A stretch of DNA of 64,000 bases from Ceratodon purpureus (Eukaryota > Streptophyta > Bryopsida > Pseudoditrichales > Ditrichaceae), in the NCBI GenBank assembly GCA_014871385.1, contig CM026426.1, positions 29,563,452-29,627,451 on the forward strand, in the 5' to 3' direction. Positions 8,984-64,000 of this stretch are shown here, one piece after another. Numbering within the stretch: the stretch's first letter is position 1; each line of letters begins with the position of its first letter. The notes beneath the pieces were generated by a model that saw only the letters and a list, made by a program, of their open reading frames with translations, did no database searches and was not told the DNA's origin. The translations under genes were made by a program, and so were the position numbers.

Positions 8984-9436
8984 GGGGAAAGTTAGCGTGT
9001 GAGCGGAGAGCGGAGAGCGGAGATCAGAGAGTAGAAAATGGAGAGCAGAGATTTGACATTTAGCCAAATTTCCGAAGGTAAAGTAAACCCTATAACCGTG
9101 GGAAAACACTAAAAAAAGGCATCATTTTGTTACTTTTTTTAGTATAGGAGTATAATTCCGTGGAATTCAGGGTTATCACAGGTAAAAGTTTTTTACCTTT
9201 TTTTGCTGAGGTACAAATTAGGGCTGATGTCATCATGTCGTCATGCATACAATCCTTTATATTTGGTCCCTTACTGGATCTAGATATGAGAGTTCCAGCA
9301 TCAAGTTTTTAGATCAGAATACTAAGTATTGCATAACTAATAAAGATAATTGTAGAAAAAACAAAATTCAATAAAGCACAAATTAGAGGTCTAAAAACTT
9401 CGTGAAATATATCAAAGTTCGTGTACTGTCGGAACA
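8984..9436. repeat. Left terminus and subterminal region of element A
   Basis: The terminal GAGCGGAGAGCGG repeats are followed by ACCCTATAACCGTGG (about 9090) and a second CCGTGG word (about 9160). The order matches 52672-52940 in element C, and 9259-9436 matches the later stretch 53833-53970 of C. The roughly 0.9 kb lying between these in C, which holds the MPKVRN gene, is absent here. Homology stops abruptly at about 9436, where another element begins. Confidence 0.65.
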
Positions 9437-10360
9437 CGGAAACACAACTAACATCCGGATAGCACTCTAATTGAGCGTAAACTTCCGTATTGTCACTAGG
9501 TCCCGAGTATCGTCCAGGGATTCAATAGTGTTTCACCAAGTAGTTACTTATAATCGTTCCGAGCCTTGCCACTGCTCGAATAGTGTATCCGGAACGTAAC
9601 TCCTCGACTATCTCTCACTCTCTTTCTCGTTCTCGTCAGGTGTTTCGTCCACAAACCCCAACGTCTCGGAACAGCTACCGTTTCACAACTATCCTAGAGT
9701 ACTCTGGCCAGCAGGTCACACAGACGACCTCTTCCGATCCGTGAGACTACAACCACAAACCAATCTGGATCTGGGAGAACCAGGATCCGATTATCCTTAA
9801 GCGACCCGTACCACGTTCCGAATCCCCCTCTCACAGTGTACGGAACCTCTTCAGAAGTTCAGGGAGCCCGATCAAGTACTCCTCGATCCGCTTCGACCCT
9901 AGCGACGGCTATTCCGCGTGAGGTTGGGTTGGGGACGGAACAGTGAGGCTTCACTCCTACGACAATCCACTAAATCTTTCCGCTCAATTCCATTACCTTT
10001 CCGGTTCGGGTCTTGTCACAACTTCCATCACCTTCCTATCCGAGCTACAGCGGAACTCTCATATCCTTCACGGATCATTCACACTTAAATGGAAACCATG
10101 CACAGTACTTGCAAAACACGAATACTTTACTGATAAGGAATATAGGGAGAAAACATGCAAAACAAAGACCCGGACTGCATCGCCTTCCCCGTTTAAGTAA
10201 GCAGGGGCTTTCACAAAAGCGGCGGCGCCGGCAGTCCAATCAAAAACCCTAATCCCTAGTTATCTACCTAGAATCCTACTTTACGACTAAACCGGATCTC
10301 TCGATCCAAAATCTACTCCTATAAATCCGGAAAGTGACGGCCAGTTGCAGCGAGAGGAAT
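9437..10360. other. Non-coding part of the gag-like element
   Basis: No gene is seen. The sequence differs from both A and C in composition and starts at the exact point where homology to C ends. It lies downstream of the gag-like frame on the minus strand, so it is probably the 3' part of that inserted element. I could not show matching long terminal repeats. Confidence 0.35.
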
Positions 10361-12526
10361 CTACCCCATCTTCGTCTTCTTGTGGCTCTCCTGCTCGCGG
10401 TCCTTCTCCTTTGACCTGGTCACCCGTGGCTCGGATCCTCCTGCCCTCGCTGCCCGCTCCGCTTGACGCCTAGCACTCCGTTCCGCTTTTGACTCCTTCG
10501 TCTGGGCCTCCAAGGACAGCCGGGTAACGATTCGGTTCTTGGGAGTCTTGGGAGACTTCGGCAACATATGCCCGAGAGGGGTTTCGGTCGTAGGGGACCG
10601 AGTCCCAGTTCCGGCTGTCCCAACCGGGGAGCTCGCATAGGTTTCCGAGTCGGACCCGGAAATCGTAATGGGTCCCTTCTCCGCCGGATCCTTCCTCTTC
10701 CTCAAAACTCTCCGAGCACCGGAACTGTCAGCAGGGGAGTCCACCACTGGCGTTCCGGTGGGTGTAGGAGTCACCGTTCCGGTCTTGGTTGTGGGTGAAG
10801 GGGTAAGTGCCCCCTCCTGAGTCACTCGGGTCCGTCCGGTTGGTGAAATGGCCCGTCTCCATTCCGCTCCTGCTACCTCCCCTTGATAAGCCGGCATGAT
10901 CACCGACGATCCGAGTGTTGGGAGAACAGCCGGCTGCACGGGCCGGGTCACCTCTTCCGTAATCGTCCGCTCTTTGGATCGCCTAACGGTGACTGTAGTC
11001 CCTGTCACCTCCGCCTGACCGGTGGGGATCGCGCAGCCTTGCTGAACCGTGCTGGCTCCGGGTGACGCCACCTGTCCTTGGTGTTCCCGGATCATATCTA
11101 CGATCGTCCGAGCCGGCTTGAAGATATCCGCGTCGACCGCCATCTGCTCCTCAAGCTGGAGGTTGCGCTCTATTGGGGTCCGGAACGCTACCCCACGAGA
11201 TTCCCCTACAACGGTCCGAGAGGGAGATCCATGAAACGGGTGGTTCCGACAAACGGTTCCGATGCTGGGACTTCCGACTCCCGGATTGAGCAACTGCTGA
11301 ACCTTCTTCAGAATCTGGTTCATCGAGTGCTCGCATTTGGAGAGGATCGTGATGATCTTCTGCTTGTTCTCCAAATCTGCAAGCTGCAATACATTCTCGT
11401 CGAACAACCGGGCCTTGTTGACTACAGCACCCGAATTCCCCACCAACTTCCAAAGCTCCCCCAAGGTCTCCTCGTGCTCGGCATGGAACTTCCGGATCTC
11501 CTCGCTCTTCGTCGCCAGTTCCCTCGTAAGCTCCTGCACCTGAAGCTCCAACTGCTTCTTCTCACTCCGAAATTTCGGGGCGTCCTTCAAAAGCTCCACC
11601 TCTCGGATCACCTCCTCCGGTAAACAGCCCCCGAGAGACGTACAGACCCTCCTGAACAGTGTCTCGATCCGATCGTAAGAGGCCTGCGCCCGATGAGTTT
11701 CCTCTCGAATCCCCCGGAATAGTGTAATCGGAAATCCCCGCTCGGAACTGACCTCCTTCCGTTCCGTATCTCCCCGGGCCGTGGAGGGCTCCGCGTGCTG
11801 CGATGCAGCGCGGTATGACCGTGACTTGGAGTGGGTCTTCGTAGCGCCGGGATTCGGAATGATCGCGGTATTATCATCCCGTTCCGTGGACGCTTTATCC
11901 GAGGTTTCGCCGTGCTGTTCGACATCCATCCTTGGCGGAATCTCAGCAAAGGTGAGGAAGTTCTTCGCCGTCGTATAATCCTCCTCCTCCTTCTCCCTAA
12001 GCAAACCATACAAGTGGTAAAGGTGGTAGAGAAAAGGGCTGATCGGGGTCCGCTTCTTTCCGATCGATGGCACCATCTTCTGCACGGTTTCCGCTATGAG
12101 CGCGGCCCAATTCACCGGACGTTCCCCCGTGTACACTCCGAAGATGGTGTACCCGACCGTAATGGTGACCTGTTCCGGTTTCAGCGGATACAAGATCGGA
12201 ACGAGGAAGGCTAAGACCTGCCTCTGTCTCCTATCCTTGCAGGCGTCTATCTCGTATCCGTTATTCTTATGGATCTTCCCGTGAAACCTATCCTGTACGT
12301 ACTTATCCGTCCGGGTTGCCCAAAGGAGTCCGTTTTGCTCGAAGTCGTAAGTTTCCGCTCACTGTTCCGCACTCCACTGCGTGGGCTTGCCCCGGATCGT
12401 GTTGTCCCACCTATTGTCCGGTCCGTCTAGGACCTCCCTCACCATCGCCTCATTCTTCAGCAACCACGGCCGTGATAGCAAACCCTGGCACCTCATCCGG
12501 GTGAGATCGTCAATCAACTCTTCCAT
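10361..12526 (-). mobile_element. Gag-like gene of a probable LTR retroelement (fossil)
   Basis: A long minus-strand coding region begins at an ATG only a few bases from the target site of element B and ends near 10361. The N-terminal part contains a helical region (VNWAALIAETVQ, then a PISPFLYHLYHLYGLL stretch) of the type found in plant gag-like or 'putative plant transposon' proteins. A central coiled coil and a long Ser/Thr/Pro-rich tail with a Lys/Arg-rich end follow. Its 5' leader appears to lie on the far side of B (34702 to about 35.2 kb). It is nearly whole, with about one break, and is split from its leader by B. The family assignment is tentative. Confidence 0.45.
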
Positions 12527-12528
12527 AT

Positions 12529-12537
12529 CCGACTCTC
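12529..12537. repeat. Target-site duplication of element B, left copy
   Basis: CCGACTCTC at 12529-12537 is repeated exactly at 34693-34701, directly outside the two inverted termini. The 9-bp length is that expected of Mutator-like elements. Confidence 0.85.
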
Positions 12538-12780
12538 GGACGTCGCTAAAGTGCGAGCGGTGAGCGGTGAGCGGAGAGCGGAGAGCGGTAACTATTCAGA
12601 TATTTTGATGAAAATGTGAATTAGAGCGGTAAGATTACGGTATTTTATGGAATAACATTATTTTGCTTTTTGAAAATTCTAAATATAGTTCGGAATGTGA
12701 CCTATGGCCGTGGACAATTTCAGTGAAATGACTAGAGGACGTAGATCTATGACCGTGGAAATCTTGGTGTTAGGGTCAGT
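12538..12780. repeat. Left terminal inverted repeat and subterminal region of B
   Basis: GGACGTCGCTAAAGT leads into GCGAGCGG, GTGAGCGG and GAGAGCGG units, then TAACTATTCAG and ATTTTGATG, matching the reverse complement of 34620-34692. Inside lie CCTATGGCCGTGG (about 12701) and CTATGACCGTGG (about 12747), a word shared with the ends of A and C. Confidence 0.75.
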
Positions 12781-13181
12781 GGATCGTACGGGCCAATACT
12801 CGTGGAATGCTGTCATAAGAACTGTTCGGTGAGTACTTATTTTGCAAACATTGGTCCGAAGTGCAGAATGTATCACTCTTCTATGACAGTTGGGAATTTG
12901 TGCCTTTCTAAACATGCTAAAGTGACCTTTCATATGTCAAGAACCTTTCAACCGGTCACCTCCTCAAATGCATCTGACGATTCAAAACATCGAACTTCAT
13001 TTATTGATCACTTCTTACCTAGATTCAACCGAGTGAATGGCTGCTTGAATTTGAGTTGAATACAGTGTAATCCTTTTTGAACACAATATCTGTGTGCCAG
13101 TAATTCCACTGTTACAATTTCCAGGCAGAATCAAAAAATAACATTGTTGCACATAGTAATAGTTCTCGCCCATTTGTAGAT
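12781..13181. other. Non-coding left interior of B
   Basis: No supported gene. AT-rich sequence upstream of the S1-like gene; it may hold its promoter. An 85-codon frame at 12802-13059 has no recognisable features and is not called. Confidence 0.3.
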
Positions 13182-14246
13182 ATGCGAAACCAGGTCTCTA
13201 AGAATCAACTTTGTTCTCTGATTTTTTTAATGTTCTTAGATTTTTATTGCGTACATGCTTCGCGACCGAATATACATAGTCCCCTTCAGATTCAAAACGC
13301 ATCTCCTCATCCGGTTATAGTGAATTGTGCCGAAAAGAAAGACGCCGATGGACTAGTTAGAATGGAATACAGTTTCTCTAAAAATCTTAGTCCGAATTCG
13401 GTAGCTCTTCTTGGATCTCCGCTTCAACAACGTATGAATTTGGAAATGTTCACAAACAATCTGTTTTGCAGATTTACATACAAAACCAGGAGTTGGAATT
13501 GCGTGGAATCCTATATTGTTGAACCTGTCTGCGTTTATGAAAATCCAAAAGTGCTGAGCAAGCGAAACAAAATGGCAGGATACTCGGACGATGATTGTCC
13601 AATATGTGATGAATGGCCGCATACTGAGGAACCTCAATGTCGTTGGAGAATTCAGGCCGATGGAGTATATGTCTCTCAATTCAGTCCTCCTCGAGGTAGT
13701 AAGCACTTCCTGAAGAAGGGCCAGTTCGGGAGAAATCCATACACCTGGGGATTGATTGATAGACTTGGCGACTACTTTGTTTCAATACTGAATGACCTCG
13801 ACCACGAATTGATGCTGGTTTACGGGCCAGTAAATGGTGCAACGACAGTCAGAACACTGCCATCCCGTCTTCAGAGAGAATCTGAGAATGAACGTACCAC
13901 AGGAGTTATCTTAAGAAGAGCTACACATCCACATTTTATTACAAAATGGATATGCAACTTCATTCTAATAGCAACGAGGAAATCCCGCAATGACGTGTTC
14001 CTATGGATACCACCTGATGACCCCGATCAGCCCATGTTGTGTATTGATTGCGCTTGGAAAGCAAATGACAGTGGTATTTTCCTGGATACCAGAACCTGTC
14101 ACCAGAACGTCCCTAAGTGGGTGAAACAATTTGATTGGATTGGACGTCGTGAGGCAGTAGCTGATGTCAAGGACCGTCACTCAACAGCCGATGTGGACGA
14201 TGAAAATCCAAGCAAGCGCCCAAAACTGGAACATAACGAATTATGA
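13182..14246 (+). CDS. Secreted S1/SPH-like protein with C-terminal extension
   Basis: A 354-codon ATG frame. Residues 1-27 form a signal peptide: a basic start, a hydrophobic core LCSLIFLMFLDFYCV, and a cleavage site near HAS. Residues about 42-165 follow the plant self-incompatibility S1 (SPH) pattern: PVIVNC, a short spacer, LFCRFTY, a W-x-SYIV strand, cysteines, then CRWRIQADGVYVS. SPH proteins are small secreted plant proteins; in poppy one acts as the pollen-recognition determinant. Here the domain is followed by about 180 extra residues with aromatic and Cys residues and a basic tail. The frame is intact. It lies inside transposon B near its left end, reading inward, so it is probably captured cargo. 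The domain call rests on pattern, not on an alignment. Confidence 0.5.
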   Translation: MRNQVSKNQLCSLIFLMFLDFYCVHASRPNIHSPLQIQNASPHPVIVNCAEKKDADGLVRMEYSFSKNLSPNSVALLGSPLQQRMNLEMFTNNLFCRFTYKTRSWNCVESYIVEPVCVYENPKVLSKRNKMAGYSDDDCPICDEWPHTEEPQCRWRIQADGVYVSQFSPPRGSKHFLKKGQFGRNPYTWGLIDRLGDYFVSILNDLDHELMLVYGPVNGATTVRTLPSRLQRESENERTTGVILRRATHPHFITKWICNFILIATRKSRNDVFLWIPPDDPDQPMLCIDCAWKANDSGIFLDTRTCHQNVPKWVKQFDWIGRREAVADVKDRHSTADVDDENPSKRPKLEHNEL

Positions 14247-14549
14247 CTACAGTGTGCATGTGAGAGGTGATTGAAACATAGATATGCAACATAACATACA
14301 CACATACGCACGTACAACAATCAACGACAGAAAGAGCGGTTCTCAGGAGGATATAAATTACTGTAGAGGACCTTGATTTCAAAACGGTGTACAGTCTCAA
14401 TGGTCATGCATAAATCTAGTGGTGGGGTTAATACGGTCAGAAGCTTCTACCTTACTCAATATATTCTGACAAAGCTGGGCCGCTGGTATATCGCTCTTTG
14501 AAACAAAGTTCGCCGTGTTCTAGGAGTCTGAGAAGGGATTGGGAATGCC
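14247..14549. other. Spacer downstream of the S1-like gene
   Basis: No gene is seen. It contains the presumed 3' end of the S1-like transcript and leads into the 53-bp tandem array. Confidence 0.3.
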
Positions 14550-15045
14550 CAAGCACTTATGTGACCCACTCCTAAACCCTGGAAAACGTTTGCTCAGTCC
14601 TGAACACACTTACGTGACCCACTCCTAAACCCTGGAAAACGTTTGCTCAGTCCCGAACACACTTACGTGACCCACTCCTAAACCCTAGAAAATGTTTGCT
14701 CGGTCCCGAACACACTTACGTGACCCCCTCCTAAACCATGAAAAAGGTTTGCACGGTCCCGAGGACACTTACGTGATCCCCTCCTTAACCCTGGAGAACG
14801 TTTGCTCAGTCCCGAGCACACTTACGTGACCCCCTCCTAAACCCTGAAAAACGTTTGCTCGGTCCCGAGCACACTTACATGACCCCCTCCTAAACCCTGA
14901 AAAATGTTTGCTCGGTCCCGAGCACACTTACGTGACCCCTTCCTAAACCCTGAAAAAAGTTTGCTCGGTCACGAACACACTTACATGACCCCCTCCTAAA
15001 CACTGAAAAAGGTTTGCTCGGTCCCGAGCACACTTACGTGACTCC
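14550..15045. repeat. 53-bp tandem array, about nine copies
   Basis: The unit repeats at 53-bp spacing (for example CCTAAACCCT at 14571, 14624 and 14677). Each unit carries a telomere-like CTAAACCCT and, in most copies, a core GGTCCCGAGCACACT followed by TTACGTGACC. The core closely resembles the GGGCCCGAGCAGACT core of the 65-bp arrays in the same element. The array lies between the convergent 3' ends of the S1-like and transposase genes. Confidence 0.85.
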
Positions 15046-15255
15046 ATTCTATTGGGGATTACACAGTTCCTTACATTGCTTAGTAGTAAATACTTCTTTA
15101 CAGAGCCTATGTATATTCAGAGCGTGACTCACACGAATTTGAGGAAATGGAATCCAGTGCTACTGTAAATTTTTGGTAGTGGCCCTTTTAGTCTCACTAC
15201 TTCACCATTAAAATAAATACAGGCTACACATGTGCGAACACCAACTCAGATATCA

Positions 15256-18200
15256 CTAGGTCTCCAAGAATTTCAGAAGGCCACTCTCCAGGACTCGCTT
15301 CACTTCGTTGAAGCTAAAACTAGCTGCATGAATGAAAGTATCCGACTCTGATTCAAGACCGCAGACTACACTGAATAGGTAATACAAATGCTTACAATTA
15401 GCCCATTGACCCCGCTTCCCAAGTGCCGTAATTGCCATCTCCTTGAAATTCGGGCAAGTGCAGGCAGGGTGTTGCGATATGGTCAGGTAATATTGCTGTA
15501 CCTTTGGAGGCTTCCCAGAATCCAATGTGACGATGCATCCGAGGGCTGGGGCAGGCAGCATGCACAACTTGCTCACTTTTGCTTGCAACGATAAGGCGGA
15601 GGCACAATTATTGCTGTGCTTGGTCGACGGAGCCTTTTTGTTCCGTCGGATGAGCTTTCCTGATCGCCGGGTAGGAAACTCGTCCGGGTATGCCGGCGTA
15701 GGGTAGGCCGAGAAGTCCACTGCCGCTGCCCGGTCTTGAAAGAGTCTTCTCGGTGACATCTCCTTCTGCTGCGGGAGTCTGAACCCGGCATTTTCTAGAG
15801 AAAGTATCTCTTTCTTCGTCAACTTTGTCCCAAGTTTCACGGGCCACACCTCAGGTACCTTTGGCACCGACAGGACCCACTTCCATTTGCTACCCTTGAC
15901 GCACCTGTCAATGTCGTCATTGCAGAAAAAGAACTGATGAGTCTCTATTCTGTCTTTCCTGTAGTTCTTCATGGGGCCCGTGTATGTCGGCGCCGCAGTG
16001 CTCTTCCTGTGCTGCACGATCCGTGCCACGCATTTCTTCTTAGTCACAGCATGTTGGGCGAAGCACGCCTTGGCGGATGTCTTAGGAAGTCGTGCAATGT
16101 GCCACTCAGAAGGGTTGCAGGCGGTCTCCTCAACTGAAGTGACGTGATGGTAGTCCACTCGAGGAAGAGACTAGTCAGGTTGAAGGTCGGCTTGGTCCTC
16201 TTCGCTGCTTGTAGGAGAGTCCGTTATTACCACCGTCGGAGGATAGTCGCTCTCCCGGCGTGCAGCTCTAGTTTGGACACGAGGTCTTGACACGCTGATC
16301 TTGTCTGGCCTATGAGACTCCCGTTCATCTCCAAAGGCAACATCAGGTTTTTGTTTTAGAGAGACACAGACCTCTTCCCCTTCAAGATGCGGGTCCCTGG
16401 TGCACCATTCGTCCGCTCTTGGCATGTTCATAATCGCTTCGTGAAGGACTTTCGGGTTTCCTGTCCTTGCTGCAGATCTTTGTGCACGTCGGAGCTTCAG
16501 CTCCTCTTTGGACGGACCTTTCCCGGGACGCTCCCCCTTCAAGAACAGGAAGTAGGCAACGCATTGCATGAAGGCCCTTACAAAGTCGTCCACAGCTGCA
16601 ACATACAAGTCGCTACCACGATCTCCGGACTGCTGCTTCGACCAGTTGTGGATTGATTCAGCAAGGTTGCAGGACGGCATCTCTGCGAGCTCATCTTCGC
16701 TGTGATTCTGCACACAGTGGAGGTTAGGTTAGATATCTGAGTGTCCAATACCTAACTGTAGGGCACCAAACTTCAGATGCGTCAAATTTAAAGGATAGGG
16801 TTTAATTACCAATTCCATGAAACCTCCCCATTGGCGATACCGGTAGTGGCAGAACGAAAGCCACGTTTCCAGATCTGAGAGCCCTTTCTCTGTTGCAGCG
16901 CCGGATGACATCCACCATGCTCGGATTGCCAAGAACATTGTTTCAGCTTCCGCCATAGTCGTGGCGTTCTTGTACTGCTGGCAGAGTTTGATGTGCTGCG
17001 CTCGGAAGTCCGGACGAATGTGAGCCTTTGTATGTTGCTCTAGAGACTGCCTCCAATGGAATAGGCATGTCCTCTCCCTATCAATCATCATCTCGGAGGC
17101 GTTACCGCTTCCATAGATAATGCGAACTGCATTGAAGTTCGCTTGGGCACCATCCGCCATGAAGCCCTTAAAGTTAACTCTCTCGACCCCGTGAGTCTGC
17201 ATGATAGCATTCAGATTCTTCCAGAGGACGGACTGGGCAGCCGTGTCCTCCGACTGCATATCGCACGCTGCGATTGTCATTATCCGACAATAGGTGGGGT
17301 CATAGACGTGGCAAGCCATCGTAACTCAATCCCTGACTCGCCTCACGTGGTCAAACATGATCCACGCATTCTCCAAGTCACCGCCAGTCTGCATACGCTT
17401 AACTAAATCGACTCCACTACCCGGCCCTACCTCAGACATCTTGAAGACATACACCTTCGCCGCATCATCGCCTTGCCCCGGGAACATGTTATTCTGGATA
17501 AACTTCCAGTTGCTGAAGCCTCGCAGCATTCTGATGCTGTCCATGGTCCCAAAGCGTCTAACAGCCTTGAACGAGGTAATGCAATTTCTGATGTTTGGGG
17601 AAGAAAGGTGCTTACAGCGGTCGAAGATTGGTTCGAGCTCCTCCAATTCCAGAATCTTCTGCGGTTCACCTTCCTTGGCCAGAAGTAATGGGCCCAGCAG
17701 CTCCTTCGCAGTTTCGAGGACGATGGCGGAATTGGTGGCGGATGGAGTACGCTCCACTTGCTCCCTGATCAAGTTCTCCGTGTGTTCGACAAAATCGCGG
17801 TTCTTGCCGGACTTCACTGGATGGTCATGAGTTTCCAAATGAACGCATGCTCTCGTCATGTGAGGTCCAGCACTGACGTAGTATATCCTTGCAGGGCAAA
17901 GTGCAACGCAGGTCGGTGGTGTATTGCAAGACTTACAGACCACACTAGAACTCTGCGGCGGGTTAGATCCGACTTCAAACAGTCTCTCAGATATCCCATC
18001 TCATTCAGTCTCGTTCACTACCGAAGTCCTGTTTCCACGTGTCAGATACTCACATTTGACATTGTCACAACGGAGATGGCCAAGGCACGACGAAGAACGG
18101 AAGACCAACTTCAGGTCGTTCTGAATATTTGAAGTCACTGTGCGAGCCCAAGGGTGTCCATCGTATTTTCTATCCATTCCCCGTAGCTGCTTTGCAGCGG

Positions 18201-18963
18201 AATGATGACCGTGAGCACTTAGGGGTGGGAACTCGAAAATGACATCGCCGTTGTACTGAGGTGGAAGGTACTGAACTTCCTGCATTCTAATTGCATTAAA
18301 ATTGATGCGCGACAGAACACTCTTTGACCTCTTACGAGCGCTAAGCTTCATGAGGCATTGAACAACACTTTCTGAAGGGGAGTCTGCAACAGTAGATGGA
18401 ACCGAGGACTTCGCAGGGACAACCACCTCCTCACAATTATCATCTGCAACACTAGAAGGAACCGAGGACTCCACAGGGACAACCACCTCCTCACAATTAT
18501 CATCTGCAACTGGCAGTGTCTTCTCCTTGCTCTCATGGGTCACCGGAATGTCGTCTGCGTTTTCACCATCGGAGCCATCACTGAGCTCATAGATGGTCTG
18601 AAGACCTGGCTCGGTCTTGACCTTCCTCAACAACGGCTCAGACTCAAGGCACACTGTTGTGGACGATCGGGGAGTAAGCAATTCAGTAGAGGCAGCTAGT
18701 AGAGACTCGGTAACTCCGTAAACTCTATACTTTCCAGGTTTGAGAATCCAGAACGTTCCAATCTCATTCTGAGTTGACAACTGACCAACGGCATGCGAGA
18801 GAGCACCGGTGATATCGTCAAAGAACTCCTCTTCTACATGCAGTGATTCCTCACGAAACCGAAATCGAAGACTCAGAGTGGTGGAACTGATCATAGCGCG
18901 GCCATCTACACCTAGAGGAAAGGTAATAGGAACGGAATGCGAATCCGCACAAAGATAGGCCAT
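15256..18963 (-). pseudogene. MULE transposase of B (WRKY/GCM1-like finger, DDE region, SWIM finger)
   Basis: The start is taken as the ATG at 18963, where the protein becomes similar to the A and C copies. Order: an N-terminal region of about 300 residues with a 24-residue duplication (VADDNCEEVVVP repeated), then a zinc-binding WRKY/GCM1-like domain ending in the HDHPV motif. The MULE catalytic region follows (MACHVYD, then FKGFMADGAQAN and RTCLFHW). After one intron (about 16715-16810) comes a C-terminal region with a SWIM finger, CTCPNF ... CKHLYYLF. It is interrupted by in-frame TGA codons near 18000 and 17325 (TGG in A at the second site) and a TAG near 16169. MULE transposases cut and paste DNA with 9-bp target duplications, as seen for B. 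Confidence 0.75.
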
Positions 18964-19392
18964 CGTGTTCAGATTAAGGGGCACCTGCAACAATGAGAAC
19001 TCTAAAGAGGAATAAAAAACAAAGAGGTGAAGACGCATAAGAATTCTCCAATGGTTAAGTATGACGCCAAATTCAATCATCGAGTGCATATCTACGAGTG
19101 CTGGAATAGGAAGGAACCCGAATTTGCATGCTTTAGCATTGTAATCTTAATGAGACGCTTTGTACGTACTTAGTTTGGCAACTGTAATTTATTACATAGG
19201 GATTAGTACACGTACCCGCCCTAATCAGCAGAATTAATCCAGAGGCTGGGATACGACTGTCATGACTTAATCACAGCAACTTCCTAAAATATTATCCTGA
19301 AAAATCGACGGAAATAGTTCAGTGTTACATTGGAACCACTCAATTCATAATGGGCTAGATGTAACCAATAAACGCGACTCCTGGGACCTATT
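18964..19392. other. 5' side of the transposase gene
   Basis: The minus-strand frame remains open upstream of 18963 but lacks similarity to the other copies. A splice-acceptor-like pyrimidine tract ending in CAG lies just before the ATG, so a 5' leader intron is likely. Nothing else is supported. Confidence 0.35.
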
Positions 19393-53039: not shown

Positions 53040-53130
53040 AGGAAAAAAACAAGCTTCACAGAACATAAAGGAGGCAAGGTTTGAAAACTTCCTGGAATAT
53101 TTCAAAATTCGTGTAAAATATCTTAACTGC
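53040..53130. promoter_or_regulatory. Promoter-like module 1 in C
   Basis: The stretch TTGAAAACTTCCTGGAATAT, TTCAAAATTCGTGTA lies about 0.3 kb upstream of the MPKVRN gene and recurs, slightly changed, upstream of the F-box-like gene (53935-53990) and in A at 9390-9436. It is repeated in front of two different genes, so it is probably a shared regulatory module. The role is inferred. Confidence 0.45.
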
Positions 53131-53829: not shown

Positions 53830-53929
53830 ATTATTCCTTTAGATTTGGTCCCTTATTATATCTAGATACGAGTATTCCAGCATGATGTTTTTAGATAATA
53901 TAGATAATTCTAGGAATAAGGAAACTCGA

Positions 53930-53990
53930 AACCACCAAAAAGAAATGGTCTTAAAAGTTCGTGGAATATTTCAGAGTTCGTGTACAATAA
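53930..53990. promoter_or_regulatory. Promoter-like module 2 in C
   Basis: AAAAGTTCGTGGAATATTTC, then AGAGTTCGTGTACAATAA: a second copy of module 1, about 0.2 kb upstream of the F-box-like gene. The sequence before it (TTTGGTCCCTTA, 53845) also matches A near 9277. Confidence 0.45.
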
Positions 53991-54195
53991 TGGAGTAGCA
54001 GAAACCAAGATGTACACCAAGTCTCACTGTTTGTCTTCGTCGAAGAAATCTCCGTCTTTAGATAAGAGCATTCCTAGCTTAAGTGTCAAGCAAGAATCAG
54101 ATTATATAAGCCTTAGCAGACGTCCTTGAAGTTGTATAAGCTCAATCATTTCTGTCGAACTTAAGCGTGTACTTGCTAGGGAGTTGTTTGAAGGT

Positions 54196-54708
54196 ATGGG
54201 AGAATCATTTGAGGTCGTTGCCTGTGAAACAATTTTACAGGATTTGCTTAAGCGGATGGCGGACGGGCCTAACCCCTGGGATCATATAGGTAGTAGTGCG
54301 ACGCAGGGTTGGACTCCTCCGACCGTTATCACGTTTGAAGACGTTGAGAACGCTCGTGCTGTGTCGAAGAGTTGGAAGCGTGAGATTGACAACAGTCCTG
54401 AATACGCATGCCTTTGGCTAGCGAGGTGGGATTACTTTTCGTACGAGGGTCGCCATTGGAGTCCGAAGGAGGAATACGAAGTTAATCGGTTCAACATCAA
54501 CTGGAGTGTTTTTAGGAGTTCTTGGAAACTTGCAACTCCAATTTACAACGAGAGGTTAGAGACAGCGTCCATTGGAGAACTTAGTTGCGTTGAGTTAATC
54601 CAGTTGAGGACATTGCTATGGGCCAATGGGAATGAGGTCTTGGATGTGCCGGAAGGAGAGAAAATTTCTCCGAGAGATGGTATCTGGATCTTTCCCAAGA
54701 ATAGGTAA
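54196..54708 (+). CDS. F-box-like protein of C
   Basis: An intact 170-codon frame from ATG 54196. Residues about 10-75 hold a divergent F-box: ILQDLLKRM, a spacer, then ARAVSKSWKREIDNSPEYA, resembling the L-x-R-x-V-S-K-x-W core of plant F-box proteins. About 90 aromatic-rich residues follow without a known repeat domain. A role in an SCF ubiquitin ligase is inferred. It is not clearly related to the D F-box-like protein beyond the motif. Element B has no copy at the equivalent place. Confidence 0.5.
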   Translation: MGESFEVVACETILQDLLKRMADGPNPWDHIGSSATQGWTPPTVITFEDVENARAVSKSWKREIDNSPEYACLWLARWDYFSYEGRHWSPKEEYEVNRFNINWSVFRSSWKLATPIYNERLETASIGELSCVELIQLRTLLWANGNEVLDVPEGEKISPRDGIWIFPKNR

Positions 54709-54984
54709 CATGGCTACGGTTTAGGGTGAGAGTTTGAATGATTAAGAAAGTATTTACAGCAATATATATATTTTGGAGCATATATATGTTTTAACATTTC
54801 ATTGTTCATGGTACATGTTGAGCATTACAGTTGTGACATTTCATCCTTTACATACACAGAGACAAATTGGAAATGAGAATCATAACAAGTTTAGGATGTT
54901 TGCAGTAGAGAAGACAAAGTAATATGCAATAAAACTCCAATTAAATCAAATGAAAACAACAGTTGACCGAAGCCTCCTTCCTAC

Positions 54985-57900
54985 TCACAACATGCTACAG
55001 TCGCTACTTTCACTCTCAGGACCCGATGACTCCAAATCTCCTTCTACAGGCTCGTCATCGACGAGTATAAGGGCCCTCGGATCAAAAGTCGTTGGCCGAC
55101 TAGGAACGTATGTAAGGGCTCCAGATTGAAACGCCTGTGCTAAGCCCTCTGCGTAGTCCGGAAGTATGAAAGGCTGAATCGGGCTGGAATGAAGACGCCA
55201 CGATGGAGTGGACACTGATGTTGGCCCACGTGGCGGTGTTGCTAAAACTACTCTGCAATAGAGAACCGATTGTGGTTAGATCGAGTACATAGGTTAGCAA
55301 AGAGAAGCAATGCTTGGATAATTTGAACAAAGAATAGAAGACTTACACCACTTGTCAGGTCTTACTCTCTTTGGAGGCGCTTCGCCTGCTGCTGCCGGCC
55401 TTGGATGTTTAGGAGGGCCCATGGCGGATGGTCTAGCCATGCACGGTTTGAGAAGGGCGTTGAATATGGCTTCGTCCTCCTCAAAAGCTAGAATGTGACG
55501 ACCAATAGCCTGGGAAGCCTTGATGGAGGCCCCTGAAACTCGGAGACAAACAAAGAAATGAGAAACTGTGGAAAAAATGAGAGGAATAATTAAGGAGAGA
55601 TATGTATGAAGAGTTACTTGTCCCAGCATTCCAATCAAGGACTATGTCGCCGGGCTTTGACAGCTCCTCAATTATGCCGTACATCATCTCAGGGGCTTTC
55701 TCCCTCGGGCCTCTGACGGCACCTCCCCATTCATGAGCTGCGATTCCTCATCGGTGAAGTTGAAAATGACATCACTCTCGGTAATGTTGAGGACCCCATG
55801 TATCAACTCGGAATTCTTTATCTGGAAGGAGAAAGTACTGCCACTACGAACGTAGACGCAAATCCAGAACCGCATAGTCTGCAGTCAAGCAAAACAAGTG
55901 AGTAAAATTAAGCAGAAGGATTATCAGTAAGTAAAGAGAAGGGTATTTTTAGGGAAATTACCAAGTTCTCGGGGTTCGTAGGAGAAGACAGGCTGAGTAC
56001 ATTGACGCCCCACCAGCCCTTGAAAAGCACAAAGTCACCACCCTCAGCTTCTTCCTCGATATCCTTAACCACATTCTGATCAGTGTTGTAGATGAGGCAG
56101 AGGGCACCATCTCTCTGCAGGTATGAATCTGCAAAACGGAAGATGTCGTACACATAATCCTTGGGGCGAGAGTTCCAAGGCCGAATACTCGTGGGGGGAA
56201 CGGAAACGAATGGGACAGGAAGATTCTCAGGGATGTCGGCAATGATCAAGTCGACTCCCAGATGGTCCTCTTGTTTGCACCGGTCCCCAACTCTGTTTTT
56301 GCGGCCTGCTCCAAACTTGAGGAAACAAGAAAGCAGAGTTAGAAACTACAAAGCGAGTAGAGGTGGCAGAATCCATTAAATGTCCAAATATCGGAACATA
56401 CCTTGCGAATGAAGTCTTGAGTCTTGATCCAATCCGGGTCGCCGCCACCTTTTCTCTCCTCTCTCTTATTTCGCCGTAACATGGAATCCACAGATGAGTT
56501 GAAGACGGAAACATGTGTGGAAATCGAAGCTCCAGCGGAAGAAGTTGTTTGAGGATATAGTTTGGCCTTCCTCTGCTCAATGAGACTTCGCGTGATCGCA
56601 GAAGCACCAATGGATGAAGGCGCATTCGTTGTGGTCGACGTTGGCATTGGGACATCTATAGTTGGAGAAGCGTTGCCTGTCTCCTTCCCTGGTGAGGAAG
56701 ACTCAGCCCCAGTATCTTGTGAGGTCTGTGACTTCGAACCCAGAGTTCGCAGTCGCCGAGCTCTCCCTTTCTTCGGTTGAGGTGCAGATGTTTGACTCTG
56801 ATGTTCTTCGTCTTCTTGAGAAGCTTCATTGGAGTCTTCAACGACCGGCGCTCGAAGATCAAGTAATGATTTGAAATCAACTATAAAACCACGGAGGCAA
56901 TCTAGATACCAACATCCTGCCTCCAAGTGAGGAGCTTTGTACCTCTTCAATTGCTGAGGAGAGTAGATACACTGGTCCGAGCTTCTCTGGATCCATAAAG
57001 GAAAGTACTTCGGGAGTCGTTGGACAGTGACGGCGCCTTTTGGAAGAAGCTCTCTCTTGAAGTACCTAGTGTAGGCCAATTTTAAAATACTTAGTATGTG
57101 GGAGAGACGAACTGCAGGATTCGAAATGCACACATGTTTGAGTAAAGATTCATACCGGTAAATGACTCGCTTGACAACATCTTCCGTTCAAGGGAATTTC
57201 GTGAAAATCGTCTTCTTATCAAAAGTCTTCTTCGCCTTGGATCCAAGGAATGCCGGGAATGCTCTGTCCCAAAGCAGAATACGCCAGCTCTCCACGTAAT
57301 CGCCTGGTCGCTGAACATCAGGGGAGGCATTCCAGTTGATGTCCAGCTCCTCGGCCTTACACATGTCCTCGAACTCTTGGATGACCGCTTCTTCCAACTA
57401 CAAGAGACAGTCAGCAGAATTAGACTACGACAATCAAAGTGATAGAATGACAAAGACATTATCAGTTCTGGAAATAAGGGAGCATACCCCTGCCCGGAAT
57501 GAAGCCCTGTTTAGCCAACGGTCGAGGTCAGCTTCCTTGAACTCCGGTGGTGGAAACCTATAAGACTGCCTTGAAGTCGGAGAGGAGTTCCACCACCTCA
57601 ACCAACGAGCTTTGTATTTCGGTTCAACTGCCGCCGGCACAATCTTCAGCAGCTTGTCCAATGTCATCTCAGGTTTGTTGAGATCGCTAACGTGGCGGTT
57701 AATCTGCAATTAGAACAGAGCTGTTAGCATTATGAAATCAAGATAACATAAGAGATAAGAACAAAATAGCTTAAGATGAAGTGATTAAGGATTCACCTCG
57801 GCAAGGAAGTCGTCACCATTTTTGGGATTCGCAATGGCCAAGTACTTGGTGAAGTCCTTCTTCTTAACGGCATCGATGAAGTTGTTTGATGCAGTTGTCA

Positions 57901-58986
57901 TCGCATCCCAAACTCCAGATCTAGATTGATCCTCTATTGGCATGTTCTCCTTGTAGGCTCTTGCGGCCAGATCCGAGGCGACTGCAATCTCTCTCTGTAC
58001 ATGGAAACGCAATATATTAAAATCAATGTACAAACTACTTGAAATGCATTAGTTAATGTAAGGATCAGAACGAATGTACTTGCTGAGTCATGGAATAAAT
58101 TCTTACTCGGTATAGGAACGCAATGAAAACCTTCGTTGTCAAGTTGAACCATCGGTCCTTTGCGTGTTTGTTCTGCACACAGATTTCAAACTCCTCTGGG
58201 CTTAGAAGATCTTTGAATTCTTCTAACTTCATGACACGGAAAGAGCGGATGCGGAATAACTTCGTTGGAAGATTACTCTTCACATGGTCATTCTCAGTAG
58301 ACCTGTGGACAAAAGAAACTGTTTAGAAAACACTTCTTTATAGAAGGATGACCCGAAATCAAATTTGAGGATTTGTACAACCAAAATTCTTACCAGTTGA
58401 TGTCATGCATGGCATGGAGAAGATTGCCCACTTGGCCGCGGGGGTCCAATATGATGCAATGCACGAAGATGTGCCAAGCTGGGTCCTCGACATGATGCTT
58501 GTTGATGTGTCGTAACCAAGCTGAAAGGCGATGGTTACCTTCCCATACAAAAAACATTTTGCCACTGAATTGATTGAGGTCATCGTCTCCTTGGAGGTCG
58601 GCTTCGAAGGCTTCGTTAGCCCTGCGCCAGCACGGGCTCCACTTTGCCTTCACTTCCTCCGTGACATCCATTGACAACTCTTCAGTGTTGAACATGGAAA
58701 TATACATCACGCGGTCCCTATCTCTGTAACCCTTCACGAACTCCCTCTCCAGATGTTGCACGCCCATTTCGCCAACCGGTCTGACTTTTGCCATTGCGAC
58801 CATTCTAGACAATGGGACAAGCAGGCGGGACTTCCTCAAGGGCTGAATACGAACGGCATTGATGACGTTGATCGAGTCAACTTTATGCTGTGTTCGATGA
58901 AGCAATTCACCTTCAACAGCGTCTTTCAAGTCCAGAGGCTTTGATGATGATGGCAACACGTCCTGTGTTTGCGTCAACTCGGGTAC
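54985..58986 (-). pseudogene. ParB-like / beta-class DNA-methyltransferase-like gene of C (10 exons)
   Basis: Exons near 58986-58394, 58302-58111, 57994-57797, 57703-57488, 57397-57162, 57065-56402, 56316-55963, 55877-55632, 55527-55349 and 55255-54985 pair with those of B. Exon 1 has the ParB-like KMFFVWEGNHRLSAW. Exon 7 has VDLIIADIPENLPVP at the DPPY position and RDGALCLIYN. Exons 8-9 have RGPREK, GDIVLDWNAGT and IGRHILAFEEDEAIF, the motif I and E-D block of beta-class N4/N6 methyltransferases. A TGA near 57189 and a frame change near 55740 interrupt it. The catalytic DPPY is replaced by ADIP, so binding without catalysis is possible. Confidence 0.65.
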
Positions 58987-59125
58987 CTGCCGTAAGCAAT
59001 AGAAATGAACAATCAAATTCAGCAATGTAGATACTGAAAAATGGAATTTACCAATCACTTAGAGATTTTCTCATAAATGAAAGAGTAAAAAGAAACATCT
59101 CAAATTTCATCTATGGCACCAAGCA

Positions 59126-59763
59126 TCAAGGCCGTGCCACTCTACGAGGAGCCCTTCCATAGTACTGTCTAGCCTCTCTACTATTCCAATGATGGCGCCT
59201 CCTCCAAAATCGCCTGGTCTGACGGCAAGCGCTGGGCAGTATTGCCGGAAGGGCAAACACTACATGGGCTGGCCTCCTCAAAACCAAAGGTGAAACTGGG
59301 GGATTAGGCGAAGACGGCAGTGTGCCAAGACGTGGCGAGGTGGGCATGTACACTGGAGAGGTGGGCATGTACACTGGAGAGGTGGGCTCATAAATAGGCG
59401 ATGTAGGCATGTACTGGGGTGACTGGACCTCGAAAGGTCCAGTGTCTACACCTAAAGGAATGGCTAAATCACAGGTACAAAGACGCTCATCCTCTGGGTC
59501 TGACAGGTCTGAAAGGTTGATCACAGAGATAGGAGAATTGACTGACATGTCGGGAGCATCAGAGCCTACCTGCAAGTACAAGGCACATGAGGAAGTTAGA
59601 GTTTTCAAATCATTTGAAAGAACTTTCAAATGCTCAACTTCAATTATTGAGGAGAATAAAAAGATGTAAATACAATAAATGAAAACATCTGTAACCATAC
59701 CTCTGTCTCCTCAGGTCCCTTGCTTTCACTCTCGGTCCCCGTGTTCTGCTGAGAAGTATCCTA
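59126..59763 (-). CDS. Exons encoding an RNA-polymerase-II-CTD-like heptad tail
   Basis: The last exon (59573-59126) follows a clean acceptor (TACTTGCAG). It encodes VGSDAPDMSVNS, an acidic Ser/Asp block, then YMPTSPIYEPTSPVYMPTSP and a further YMPTSPRL: four heptads of the form YxPTSPx. A Pro-rich stretch and a strongly Arg-rich tail (RRFWRRRHHW, then RRVARP) end at a stop. A short upstream exon (about 59760-59701) encodes DTSQQNTGTES. Probably the 3' part of the accessory gene that starts near 61926. The heptads imitate the YSPTSPS repeat of the largest RNA polymerase II subunit. Confidence 0.5.
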
Positions 59764-59934
59764 CAATTGATAAAAATTGCAGAAATGTCAATTATTAAAA
59801 TAATTTTCACCCCTATTGATAGGTTCTCATCTACATGCACGAATGATCACACAAATATACATCCAAGTTAAGTAGAATGAATCCAATAAATAAATTAAAT
59901 GCTTTAAAAAAAAAACTTAGTTAAGAGAGATGTA

Positions 59935-60195
59935 ATATTAAGAGAGGGATAGGGAGTGCGGGCGGGATAGGGAGAAAGATAGGGGGAGGGAACAGCGAAG
60001 GGATAGGGAGAACGAGAGGGACAGGAAGAGTGAGGCAGAGAGAGTGGAGCAGGGACAGGGAGTGATGGCGAGGGAGCAAGATAGACAGGGAGAAATTAAG
60101 GGATAGGGAGACAATGAGGGACAGGGAAAGAAAGAGAGTGAGCAAGGACGAGGGGGGAGAGACGAGCAGGGACAGGGAGAGTGAGGGAGAGTAAG
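59935..60195. repeat. GGGATAGGGAG-type purine-rich minisatellite
   Basis: Irregular tandem GGGATAGGGAG, GAGGGACAGGGAG and AGAGTGAG units over about 260 bp, almost only A and G on the plus strand. It lies in a presumed intron of the accessory gene. It could form G-quadruplex or triplex structures. Confidence 0.8.
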
Positions 60196-60289
60196 AGGAG
60201 TAGGGCTATGGAGTGACCTGGGGGGAGATTAAACTAAACACGAAAAGCAATTAAAGAAAGCAATTTAAAAAAGACAATTGAGAGGGCTC

Positions 60290-61370
60290 GAGGCACTGGT
60301 GTCTGCTCCGAAAGTAGGCACCAGGCTGCTTGCCACGAAATGAAATAAAAAAAAAAATGGGAGCCGCAAGCCTCATGGGAGGCTCATAGCCTCCTCAGCC
60401 GCGGCTCTCTATCAGTGAAGCTGGGCGGATTGGAAAGCCGAGTCTCTTGCACAGTCAATTTCTTCCTCGATTGACACTATGCGAGAATCTGCGAATCCGC
60501 ACAAGACCATCCTTGTTGTGAGTAGCAGCAGTTTGTTTAGAGCCGCAGCAGCATTCAAATGCCGCAACCCTCAAACAAAATCTCCAACAAGTAGAAACCC
60601 GCACACAAAAAACCCACTATCCGCAAACACGATTGACCCAAAACCCATCCAACCGAACCTCAACTCCTTGAATTCTCAATCCTCGCAATCCACAATCCCC
60701 CAACATTCAAATTCTCAATCCCCAGCACTCCCCGAGCTTCCAATGCGACATTCCAATCAACATCACGCAAATCTCCAACTTCCCGAAACACCCCAGCACT
60801 CGACAGCAGCAGATCCGCATCATCCTCAGCAACCCAGCAACCAGCGAATTCCCACGACGCCATCAACCCCATCAAACTGTACCCATCAAGCATACAATTC
60901 CAAATTACCGACTTGGAAAGAATCTGACCTCGTCGTCGTCGTCTTCGTTGTCGAGCTCGTCGTCGAGGTCGCCCTCGACCTGGTCCTTGTGCTGCACTCC
61001 GGGCTGCTGCTCGAGCTCTACGCCTCCATCGAACTCCACGACTCCACCAACCTGCTCAACATCCCCCTCGCCGCGGCCGCCCACACTCTGCTCTCCCTGC
61101 GCAGCCATTGCTCTCCCTCCCTCTCATGCGTCCAGAATACCTTGCCTCGCTCGTCTCGCTTCGAGTCGGAGGTGCTCAAACTCGGCGCATTCTCCAAGGG
61201 CCGACCCACGAGATTGATCCCCGACCCCTCTCATCCTCTTGATGCTCTGTATAAAAATAGCAGACATTTGAATCTATGATTCCCCTGTGTCAAGTGCCGC
61301 GGCCTTCTCCATGAGACTTATGATTCGAGTGTGTAAATTGCCGCGGCCCCTCTCAAATAGACTTAGAGCA
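60290..61370. other. GC-rich segment, possibly captured host DNA
   Basis: The base composition is markedly more GC-rich than the rest of C. Frames are open on both strands (for example 60479-61279 plus and 60905-61108 minus). The minus-strand reading has a Glu/Asp/Arg composition, ending DDELDNEDDDDEV, that looks protein-like and could be an exon of the accessory gene. MULEs often carry captured host gene pieces (Pack-MULE). A direct repeat of a GTGCCGCGGCC-type block lies at 61286-61366. The source gene was not recognised. Confidence 0.3.
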
Positions 61371-61488
61371 AACCTCACATTCTTTATTCAAACTACTCAA
61401 TTACTAACCTTTCACAAATATACTAGATTACACAAATAATTCCCATTACCGTGGTCCTAGAGAGATTATAAATACTTACCTTATCGGC

Positions 61489-61926
61489 GTTGAAATAAAG
61501 ATCTGATAGAGAATCAGGCTCCCCTGTCGAGAACTCATTGAATGTAATCGAAGGTTGCGGAGACTCTAGTTTCTAACTACAATTAAAGACTAATTCTTCC
61601 ATCATGGCCTCACGTTCTCCTCTACTTAAAAGTACCTCCTGTTCGTGCTCGTGATTCTCGATGTCCGTGTTCTCTAATAATTCGTCTTTCTCCTCTACTA
61701 TAGAGTCTAGAATGAGTTTGCGAAGGCTAGAAAACTTCAATGCTACAGGCAGACCATCTCCTCTCCCTTTCACGGGTGCACTCAAATGGCCAGTTTTAAA
61801 ATCTACCTGCTTACGTGATGCTCTCCTCTTTCTAGCTCTTCTATTTGTAAAATCAGTGCGGCCTGGTTTCCTTCTCTGTTTAGGAGTAACATAAGTGGAG
61901 GGAGATGGCCCTCCACCCTGCTTCAT
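61489..61926 (-). CDS. Accessory gene of C, 5' exons
   Basis: Exon 1 starts at the ATG 61926 (MKQGGGPSPSTYVTPKQRRK) and contains a basic RARKRRASRK stretch and an acidic end. A donor after EHEHEQE (GAG|GTACTT, near 61633) and an acceptor TTAG near 61566 define a 60-odd-bp intron. Exon 2 continues in frame with KLESPQPSITFNEFSTGEPD to a donor AAG|GTAAGT near 61477. Element A keeps the same exon pair. The gene is divergent from the transposase. The 3' exons may be the CTD-like ones at 59126-59763. Function unknown; the basic region suggests nuclear localisation. Confidence 0.5.
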
Positions 61927-61938
61927 GTGTCTAACCAC

Positions 61939-62553
61939 AGGAAGGATTCTCTCACAAAAAGACTTTCATGAGAACTTCCTGCCAGCTTAAATACCTCTCA
62001 CGTACAACTATTTTCCTAGAACCCTAAGTTGATATACAATCTCAACCACTGACACATTGTCTGCCCACTTTATATTAAGAGTATCATTAACAATTCTATA
62101 ATTGAAGCTAGGTTTAAAATATCAACCTCTAATTATAAGGAATATATCTAAGTGCACTATAAATTGAAAGATTTGAATCAAGCACTTCAATCATGCTCCT
62201 TTTTATATTCATTGTTTTAAATGTAGTTTTGAATTGACGGCTCATTCTTATCTTATAATACATCATGACAAATAGAATCCGCTCTACGATTCAAATATTA
62301 AAGTAGAGTTAAATATACCTTACCTCATATACTTAGACCTGCATAAAGTGGCACTGTAATATGTTAGCGCCGTCTCTCTTAAATCATACATTCGTTACCT
62401 AACAGACAGAATCATTCCCCAACTGTTCACATGGACATTCCTACCTGCATAAAATGATCAACAGCGATGCATCATGCCTCTCACTTTGCTCTCGCGTACA
62501 GTCAGTGCTCCCTTCTTTCCGCTCGTACGATTGACTTGCCTGCGAACATCGGG
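61939..62553. promoter_or_regulatory. Divergent intergenic region of C
   Basis: AT-rich, non-coding, between the divergent accessory and transposase genes. Probably holds both promoters. No specific boxes can be assigned with confidence. Confidence 0.35.
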
Positions 62554-64000
62554 ATGGTCTGTCTGTATGCCCAAGGCATGTGAATCCTTCTTAGGTTTCG
62601 CGTAGATGATGATGGTCTAGCTACAGTTAACTCTCTTCGCCTGAGCCTCAGATTCCATTTCCGTGAGGATTCCATCAGTGTAGAGGAGGAGATCTTCGAT
62701 GACGTTATTGCCGAGGTTACCCACACCCTCGGCCAACCTTCAGTGAGAGATGAAAACAATATGTTGCAGTGGAGACTCTTCCCTGGATCCTATAGGGTCT
62801 ATGGTCTTACCGATTCTCTGATGGCTGCATCCACTGAGATCCTCACCCCCCGTCGCTCTTCTACTTGCACAATTCAGACTCCCTTACCTCGTGATGTCAA
62901 AGTCAAAGTCGAGCCTGGTACCGAGACTTCAGATGTAGACAAACCTCCTCCTCCGTCCGTCATAACTCTCTCCTCTGATGACGAAGTCAGTCCCGTCAAG
63001 TTGGTGCCGAAGGTCCAGGCTGATGCTCCTCCTTCCAATGTGTCTCCTCCATTGTCCCATGTCACAGTTAGCATTGTTCCTCTCCTTCAACAGCTTGCAA
63101 AGGCGCGTGGGTCAAAAAACATTTTGAAGAAGATAGACTATTCTACTATTAGACACGAGAGAGTAGAGTACTTGCCTGCGAAGTTTGATGGTCCGGTTCT
63201 TTTTGAGTTGCCACCAGGTGCTGCAGGATCCTCTAAGCTCGCCGCCAAGTCAATGCAGGGAATGGACAAACGATACAACGGACACTTGTGGACCAAGACC
63301 ATCACAACAAACATCAAAAACGACTTCGGATTATCTTTTCAAAGTTCCACCTACGTTGGATGGCTGCGCTGCAGCAACAAGGAGTGTGACTTCGTGAAGC
63401 GTGTTCCCAAGATCTTCGAGGTTAACGAGACTGAGTTCGAAGGGTGTACCCTGCAAGCTTTTCTCATGGATCAGCCTCCTCCATCTGACTCCACGCTAGT
63501 GTGCAAGGTATGTAAAGAACCTCCATCATGTGTAGCTACATGCGAAGCTAAGATTTATTACGTTGTGGGCAAAGCGAATCAGACTAGAGCTTGTATTCAC
63601 ATAGGAACACATGATCATCCAGTGAAAGTTGGAGACTACAGAGACTCTAAAGCAGAAATTAGTAGCTTAATAGAAGAGCAGGTACAGATGAACAACAAAG
63701 CAACGAAGAGCGCCGTTGTCTTGGAGGCGAGCAAACTCCTCATCGGGAGCTACCTGCTACAGCCCGAGGATGCACCATCGAGGAAGTTGACGATGGAGGA
63801 GCTGGTTCCTGTTCTGGATCGATGCAAAGACATGGCGTCCCCAAACATCCGCAACAAAGTCGCGACCTTCAAAAAATACAGAAGGTACGGAGTCATGGAC
63901 GGTATCACCAAGCTCCGTGGAAACAGTCTCTCGGCGTATGTCCAAGAGAATAGGTTTCCTGGTCAGGGATCTATGCGTGACAAAGTCTTCGTCTTCAAGA
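62554..64000 (+). CDS. MULE transposase of C (partial, runs off the window)
   Basis: Similarity to A and B starts near the ATG at 62554 (MVCLYAQGM). A TGA at 62581 follows, after which the frame is open to the last base of the window. The true start or a 5' intron therefore needs another model, or the copy has one early break. Visible: GSYRVYGLTDSLMAASTEIL, YLPAKFDGPVLFELPPG, GMDKRYNGHLW, NETEFEGCTLQAF, then a WRKY/GCM1-like finger with CKVCKEPPSC and HIGTHDHPVKVGDY, and ASPNIRNKVATF. The DDE and SWIM parts lie beyond the edge. This is the best-preserved transposase of the three. Confidence 0.7.

Follow-up and report, generated by a model that had tools for sequence, protein, structure and literature searches.

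Mutator-like elements (MULEs) of plants have terminal inverted repeats (TIRs; present in most families), target-site duplications of 8–11 bp, a DDE transposase core with CxxH, a SWIM-like motif, and extra open reading frames (ORFs) (PMC6446971). The extra ORFs and domains named in the available part of that source are SET, Ovarian Tumour, PMD and FAR1, and no methyltransferase is mentioned there (PMC6446971); ULP1 is a further MULE cargo (PMC13317346). In Arabidopsis, the anti-silencing VANDAL/VANC elements (PMC5735166, PMC10398659), which are termed non-TIR MULEs, have their own extra gene, and their VANC proteins recognise short motifs in non-coding DNA (PMC13317346). Here, we analyzed a 64,000-bp window (C6:29563452-29627451) of the moss Ceratodon purpureus that holds three large transposons, A, B and C, together with their relatives across the genome. 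The elements share with plant MULEs the TIRs, target-site duplications that, at 10 bp, fall inside the 8–11 bp range, a predicted DDE core with CxxH, a SWIM-like motif, and extra ORFs; they differ in their size of ~20 kb or more, in a transposase without a Pfam match, and in a cargo gene with a methyltransferase domain rather than ULP1, SET, Ovarian Tumour or PMD. With VANDALs they share a MULE-type body with its own extra gene, motif clusters in non-coding DNA and a predicted counter-silencing role; unlike VANDALs, they have clear TIRs, and to our knowledge VANC has no methyltransferase domain. We consider it rather probable that these are giant TIR elements, likely of the Mutator/IS256 superfamily, which combine a DDE transposase with a methyltransferase-like, self-encoded epigenetic and probably anti-silencing factor; the family placement is probable, and the function is one that we infer.

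Element B is bounded by GAGCGG-containing TIRs and a target-site duplication (Table 1), and its empty site was found. A paralogue of A at C6:29493436, ~79 kb upstream and with the same outer flank, has the B-free, uninterrupted site CCATATCCGACTCTCTCACC, in which the 10-mer occurs once. This paralogue matches the window at 98.8% over positions 8439–12537 and then at 95.8% over 34692–35268, the two matches overlapping by 10 bp. A second, more diverged copy of B's host retroelement is likewise uninterrupted. An earlier note on this DNA had proposed exact 9-bp duplications around A and B; they are real and exact, but their length is 10 bp. The words TAACCACCG and CCGACTCTC each occur at only two places in the window (8975 and 44935; 12529 and 34693). 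Since at least two matches were also obtained in 6 and 7 of 100 shuffles, respectively, the recurrence of either word, taken singly, is weak evidence of a duplication.

The earlier note had also described three termini families of one design, and this count falls to two. At their left ends, A and C align with each other in two blocks, 83% and 79% identical, so that, judged by these ends, A and C are one family and B the other. GAGCGG units stand at both ends in both families. The end word CCTATGACCGTGG, which had been taken as recurrent, has a single exact match in the window, and A and C have CCTATAACCGTGG at their left ends.

Relatives were sought in the whole assembly (362,488,568 bases in 151 contigs), where the counts of ends and exons are lower bounds, since part of the candidates was scored. 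The B-type left end is present at no fewer than 40 places, with 92–100% identity and on every one of contigs C1–C13 (40/494 candidates scored), the B-type right end in at least 41 rows, comprising 40 places and one fragment (40/464 scored), and the A-type left end in at least 41 rows (40/792 scored). As many of the ends are near-identical, B-type elements are, by this sequence measure, recently mobile. Pairing of B-type ends by strand and distance yielded 29 pairs: two of 1,558 bp, 11 of 18.8–23.9 kb, two of 24.0–24.2 kb and 14 of 28.9–87.4 kb, the last group presumably holding nested insertions. The flanks of 20 pairs were compared, and the 10-bp duplication was identical in 17, carried one mismatch in two, and was unlike in one. 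The unlike pair (L034, C3:22887759) probably represents two neighbouring elements that were mispaired and was left out of the 10-bp count, while two of the 17 identical cases are the duplicated 1,558-bp copies, which represent one site. At C3:22887759-22937662, one left end is followed by two B-type right ends and two copies of the GNHR exon described below; to judge from the flanks, these would be neighbouring elements, and a duplicated segment seems to be present both here and at C3:23673564.

The 1,558-bp derivative consists of B's first 746 and last 814 bases. Its copies, at C8:8143954-8145511 and C8:8446925-8448482, have one target duplication in common, and the C8 segment carrying it seems to have been duplicated in opposite orientation. 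Two full relatives proved informative for the gene content. B2, a B-type copy of 20,522 bp on C12 with the duplication TGGAACAGAC, has an open transposase and all recognised cargo exons open. C2, an A/C-type copy of ~16.1 kb, is flanked by the 10-bp duplication GGATCTCCCA, and each of its ends carries GAGCGG units.

The main cargo is a multi-exon gene that is collinear in B and C at 29–50% identity. Thus, the gene order common to both elements, as first noticed from the window, was borne out, and the A/C family, though diverged from B, has the same cargo gene in the same order. A methyltransferase-domain exon lies in 27/29 pairs, that is, in all 27 large ones, and the two pairs without it are the copies of the 1,558-bp derivative; this test used 40 places, picked by B-type identity from the matches listed, of which 39 represent the motif-IV exon and one the motif-I exon. 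The exon with the GNHR motif lies within 25/29 pairs on the same strand, 18 of the 25 at 8.4–11.0 kb from the right end, and 9/11 unpaired B-type left ends have it at most 35 kb away. Genome-wide, the GNHR exon was found at 60 or more places (60/6,061 candidates scored), and the methyltransferase part has at least 177 matches (150/3,239 scored). These results uphold the proposal of one lineage of elements of at least ~20 kb with a transposase and common cargo, and both the search for copies with two termini and cargo and the listing of B-type duplications turned out in its favor.

The predicted protein opens with the GNHR-motif exon, which is followed by helical-looking exons and a charged linker; next come motif IV, then motif I and the end of the methyltransferase part, and last an acidic tail. 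PF01555 (cut-off 26.7 bits) scored 32.3 bits in the C composite, 26.8 in B2 and 16 in a single window-B exon; it found no match in L087, a database relative described below. Against the Protein Data Bank (PDB), the cargo matched DpnA (7.4e-8). Motif IV of beta-class N6/N4 methyltransferases reads (D/N/S)PP(Y/F/W), for example DPPY. The cargo has D[LIV]PE at this position, not DPPY, in 4/4 sequences (B2, C, C2 and L087) and also in window B. The domain is beta-class N6/N4-like by sequence, yet because of this motif it is not classed as a working methyltransferase. The ParB/Srx-like domain has the motif GxHR/GERR, and among 55 sequences of the GNHR exon G, N and H are invariant and R is kept in at least 90%; the motif appears ParB-like. 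No profile matched this exon below E 0.03 (DUF1015 weakly in 6/55, best 0.061), no PDB entry matched it below 0.09, and its fold model was of low confidence.

Relatives of the GNHR exon number 355 among public proteins at E≤10; among the 120 listed, those with 42–98% identity have no precomputed Pfam domain. The spliced C cargo composite found nothing at E≤10 among 5.8 billion proteins, probably due to relatives existing as single-exon pieces. For a cargo exon, none of 17 viral pattern matches was confirmed, and one of 30 was confirmed in prokaryote genomes. The latter is L087 (CADCWO010000058.1), filed as an uncultured cyanobacterium, which has most of the cargo gene with a GNHR exon of 36% identity and apparent introns. 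Since the gene there apparently has introns, L087 is probably contaminating plant DNA in a metagenome-assembled genome.

The cargo might simply have been captured from a host or a bacterium and travel along as a passenger of no use to the element. Such capture of gene fragments is frequent in MULEs (Pack-MULEs; PMC13317346), and the cargo copies of B and C in the window are broken. The selection test contradicts this explanation: between B and B2, the ratio of nonsynonymous to synonymous substitution rates (dN/dS, by NG86) was 0.11 over 982 codons, and all 10 compared exons were equal in length. The cargo is moreover present in two families and in 27/29 pairs, and at five joints compared between B and C the predicted splice sites coincide at two and share the donor alone at a third, while one joint differs and one has no candidate in C. 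We regard the passenger explanation as hardly credible; the cargo is under purifying selection. For comparison, B versus B2 gave a dN/dS of 0.14 for the transposase (1,198 codons), 0.28 for the S1-like ORF (354 codons) and 0.42 for a small ORF (162 codons). The B, C and C2 cargo copies themselves are decaying, as they have in-frame stops or an apparent frameshift (at least three in-frame TAG in B, at 23761, 24044 and 29397; one stop in C2), with B2 open.

In eight exon pieces compared between C and C2, the cargo had a dN/dS of 0.15 over 657 codons at a dS of 1.34, which is near saturation; one piece gave no dS estimate and two were higher (0.37 and 0.62). The transposase part had a dS of only 0.065 (451 codons, ratio 0.25). 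C and C2 therefore have near-identical backbones and old, divergent cargo alleles, and from this difference in dS it appears that cargo cassettes have been exchanged between elements. An accessory gene, gene1, has a dS of just 0.36 between B and C and is missing from B2, a distribution suggestive of exchange or loss. Tandem repeats, pyrimidine-rich and other, bracket the optional gene1 block on the right side of B (30164–31451 and 32930–33927), and recombination between them may have caused its loss or gain.

The transposase, for which 54 homologues (P0001-P0054) were collected, has a D-D-E pattern with CxxH, GCM1/WRKY-like and SWIM-like motifs, as judged by eye. Its predicted fold, partly confident, is closest to ISCth4, which we take to be a relative of Mutator. 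The MULE-type reading of the earlier note finds support in these motifs and in the partly confident fold. The Pfam models for MULE, SWIM and Mutator matched neither the transposase pieces scanned nor the relatives: B2 had no match to any Pfam model at E≤10, and the seven homologues scanned, out of 54, had none to these models at E≤1. A MULE/SWIM profile match is a diagnostic trait of MULEs, not a defining one. The VIA list from the fold comparison contained no eukaryotic MULE chain, which excludes nothing. On the modelled fold and motifs, the elements likely belong to the Mutator/IS256 superfamily, and an assignment to a different DDE superfamily (hAT-, P- or KDZ-like) seems quite improbable to us. 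An alternative genetic code as the cause of in-frame stops was ruled out: the stops examined are copy-specific or intronic, and B2 is open throughout the recognised exons.

The non-coding parts of the elements hold clusters of short sites. B has 34 CCCGAGCA sites, most of them within tandem repeats. B2 has 14 against ~0.4 expected, nine of these at 7.8–10.4 kb and one within the transposase gene. The site is absent from A, from C2, from C as far as position 64000 and from the flanks in the window. C2 has 11 copies of CCGAGCA on a single strand, where 0.8 would be expected, and 26 of GAGCGG, where 4.4 would be expected. The CCCGAGCA and CCGAGCA clusters resemble those of VANDALs and are candidate targets of the cargo protein.

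One may ask whether the cargo serves transposition itself, binding or methylating the GAGCGG end repeats and thereby setting timing or strand choice, unrelated to silencing. Dam methylation has this role for some bacterial elements, and GAGCGG at both ends in both families, its excess in C2 and the constancy of the cargo in 27/27 large pairs would fit. The internal position of 9/14 CCCGAGCA sites in B2, away from the ends, speaks against such an accessory factor, which we consider unlikely. The cargo-less 1,558-bp derivative says little on this point, as it represents one duplicated insertion site and may have arisen in place.

Herein, we outline the anti-silencing mechanism that we favor. The elements, of ~19–24 kb (up to 87 kb between ends), have inverted repeats that enclose the predicted DDE transposase and the multi-exon methyltransferase-like gene. 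The transposase, to judge from fold and motifs, would cut and rejoin the elements. The cargo protein would bind element DNA via the GNHR domain and/or at CCCGAGCA sites in the non-coding repeats, and its D[LIV]PE methyltransferase domain would either have an altered chemistry or serve for binding only. In this way, the protein would keep family members transcribable despite host transposon silencing. More specifically, and only tentatively, we suggest that a bacterial-type ParB-methyltransferase acts as an epigenetic shield: with its active site remodelled to D[LIV]PE, it would recognise the repeated sites of the element by sequence and mark or cover them. Such a shield would have arisen without any link to VANC, and element families would have passed it to one another as a cassette.

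Other systems are more distant. Retrotransposons of dinoflagellates and charophytes likewise have their own DNA methyltransferase (DNMT)-type protein (PMC5890265); those are C5-cytosine enzymes, whereas here an N6/N4 beta-class domain is found in a DNA transposon. Bdelloids are eukaryotes with a bacterial-type amino-methyltransferase domain (PMC8885841). Fungal Starships are similar to the present elements in size and multiple ORFs. The bdelloid enzyme, named N4CMT, is a host gene and not transposon cargo. Mavericks, Teratorn and the enlarged CACTA elements of Chondrus (16–20 kb) are also alike in size and number of ORFs (PMC6431247). All these giant eukaryotic transposons use transposition enzymes other than those here. 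None of the Pack-MULEs of a 2004 study exceeded 7 kb, according to PMC6431247. No description of the present elements was found in the titles and abstract openings of the open-licence literature, and PMC12695648 mentions neither moss nor ParB.

The coordinates of all features are given in Table 1. The earlier note had counted at least five accessory genes, which is more than the evidence allows: support is strong for one cargo gene, fair for the S1-like ORF, and weak or variable for the others. Some of the ORFs in A are not cargo but parts of the retroelement and hAT copies nested there. BED and dimerisation matches of the hAT copy (35264–37614) were weaker and under the cut-off. The host of A is a Ty3/gypsy-like retroelement by eye, with an RNase H-like frame 5' and an integrase-end-like frame 3', and when the flanks of A were joined in silico, the retroelement frame stayed open for 64 codons beyond the junction. 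Inverted copies of a 3-kb repeat (974–3922 and 49485–52671, 90–96% identical in blocks) bracket the element nest, and C is inserted at the exact end of one of them; the inverted copy continues uninterrupted, without C, at 950–1005. The right end of C was not found within ~60 kb past the window in a search by expected flank. Judged by eye, a CACTA-like element near 67.7 kb (window position ~67,700–69,000) seems to break the right part of C. The MPTSPVY-type repeats of the C exon at 59126–59710 (− strand) resemble the RNA polymerase II tail (RNA_pol_Rpb1_R, E 0.083), and C2 has more of them. The contig C6 comprises 110,524,308 bases, or 30.5% of the assembly. As this share is close to that of the U and V chromosomes of C. 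purpureus, each >100 Mb and ~30% of the 360-Mb genome (PMC8000587), C6 appears to be a sex chromosome.

Table 1. Features of the window and their coordinates.
Feature	Position	Strand	Remarks
Element A, split by B and further nested insertions	8984..44933		left end GGGGAAAG, right end ...CTCCCTC, 10-bp duplication
A target-site duplication, left copy	8974..8983	+	CTAACCACCG
A target-site duplication, right copy	44934..44943	+	CTAACCACCG
Gag-like retroelement nested in A	9427-12527 + 34702-35273		not cargo
hAT transposon nested in A	35264-37614		frame broken, not cargo; DUF659 1.2e-12 and 4.3e-16
A small gene	38583..39095	-	counterpart C 61429-61950; amino acid (aa) identity 51% main block, 38% second
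A transposase, broken	39795..43702	+	aligned blocks 32-61% identical (aa) to B transposase
A small gene	44028..44567	-	counterpart 66514-66767 of extended C sequence; DNA identity 70%, 260 columns
Element B, 22,154 bp, within retroelement nested in A	12538..34691		ends, 10-bp duplication, empty site
B target-site duplication, left copy	12528..12537	+	TCCGACTCTC
B target-site duplication, right copy	34692..34701	+	TCCGACTCTC
B left TIR, GAGCGG units	12545..12610	+	66 bp, 88% complementary to 34619-34684
B right TIR	34619..34684	-	partner of 12545-12610
B ORF, 354 aa, weakly S1-like	13182..14246	+	PF05938 below cut-off
53-bp tandem repeats with CCCGAGCA	14554..15042	+	
B transposase	15259..18963	-	in-frame stops: two TGA, one TAG; a further TAA falls in an intron, as seen against B2
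B small ORF, weakly constrained	19393..19905	-	dN/dS 0.42
65-bp tandem repeats with CCCGAGCA	21253..22639	+	upstream of cargo gene
B cargo gene, ~10 exons	23392..29976	+	collinear with C; PF01555 in B2; dN/dS 0.11
B cargo exons	GNHR-motif 23392-23889; motif-IV from 28191; motif-I 28969-29241; last to 29976	+	
65-bp tandem repeats	25281..25976	+	in cargo-gene intron
B gene1, shared with C and missing in B2	32088..32489	-	75% aa identity to C 53410-53805; dN/dS 0.28
Element C, left end onward	52672..64000		extends past window; 83%/79% identity with A at left end
C gene1	53410..53829	+	counterpart of B gene1
C cargo gene, main exons	55498..58986	-	one TGA and one apparent frameshift in C copy; PF01555 1.3e-7 on composite
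Probable upstream exon of C cargo	59126..59710	-	MPTSPVY repeats; C2 has counterpart
C small gene, common to A and C	61429..61950	-	A 38583-39095
C transposase, 5' part	62482..64000	+	

Taken together, the window holds an autonomous-looking MULE-type transposon, several-fold the usual size, of which a large gene under constraint is an integral part. It offers a direct entry to a possible plant transposon defence against silencing outside Arabidopsis, and the abundance of near-identical copies should make tests practical. An active methyltransferase domain would mean that a land plant has, in these elements, a source of adenine or N4-cytosine methylation; an inactive one would mean that a methyltransferase fold has been reused as a sequence-specific binder.
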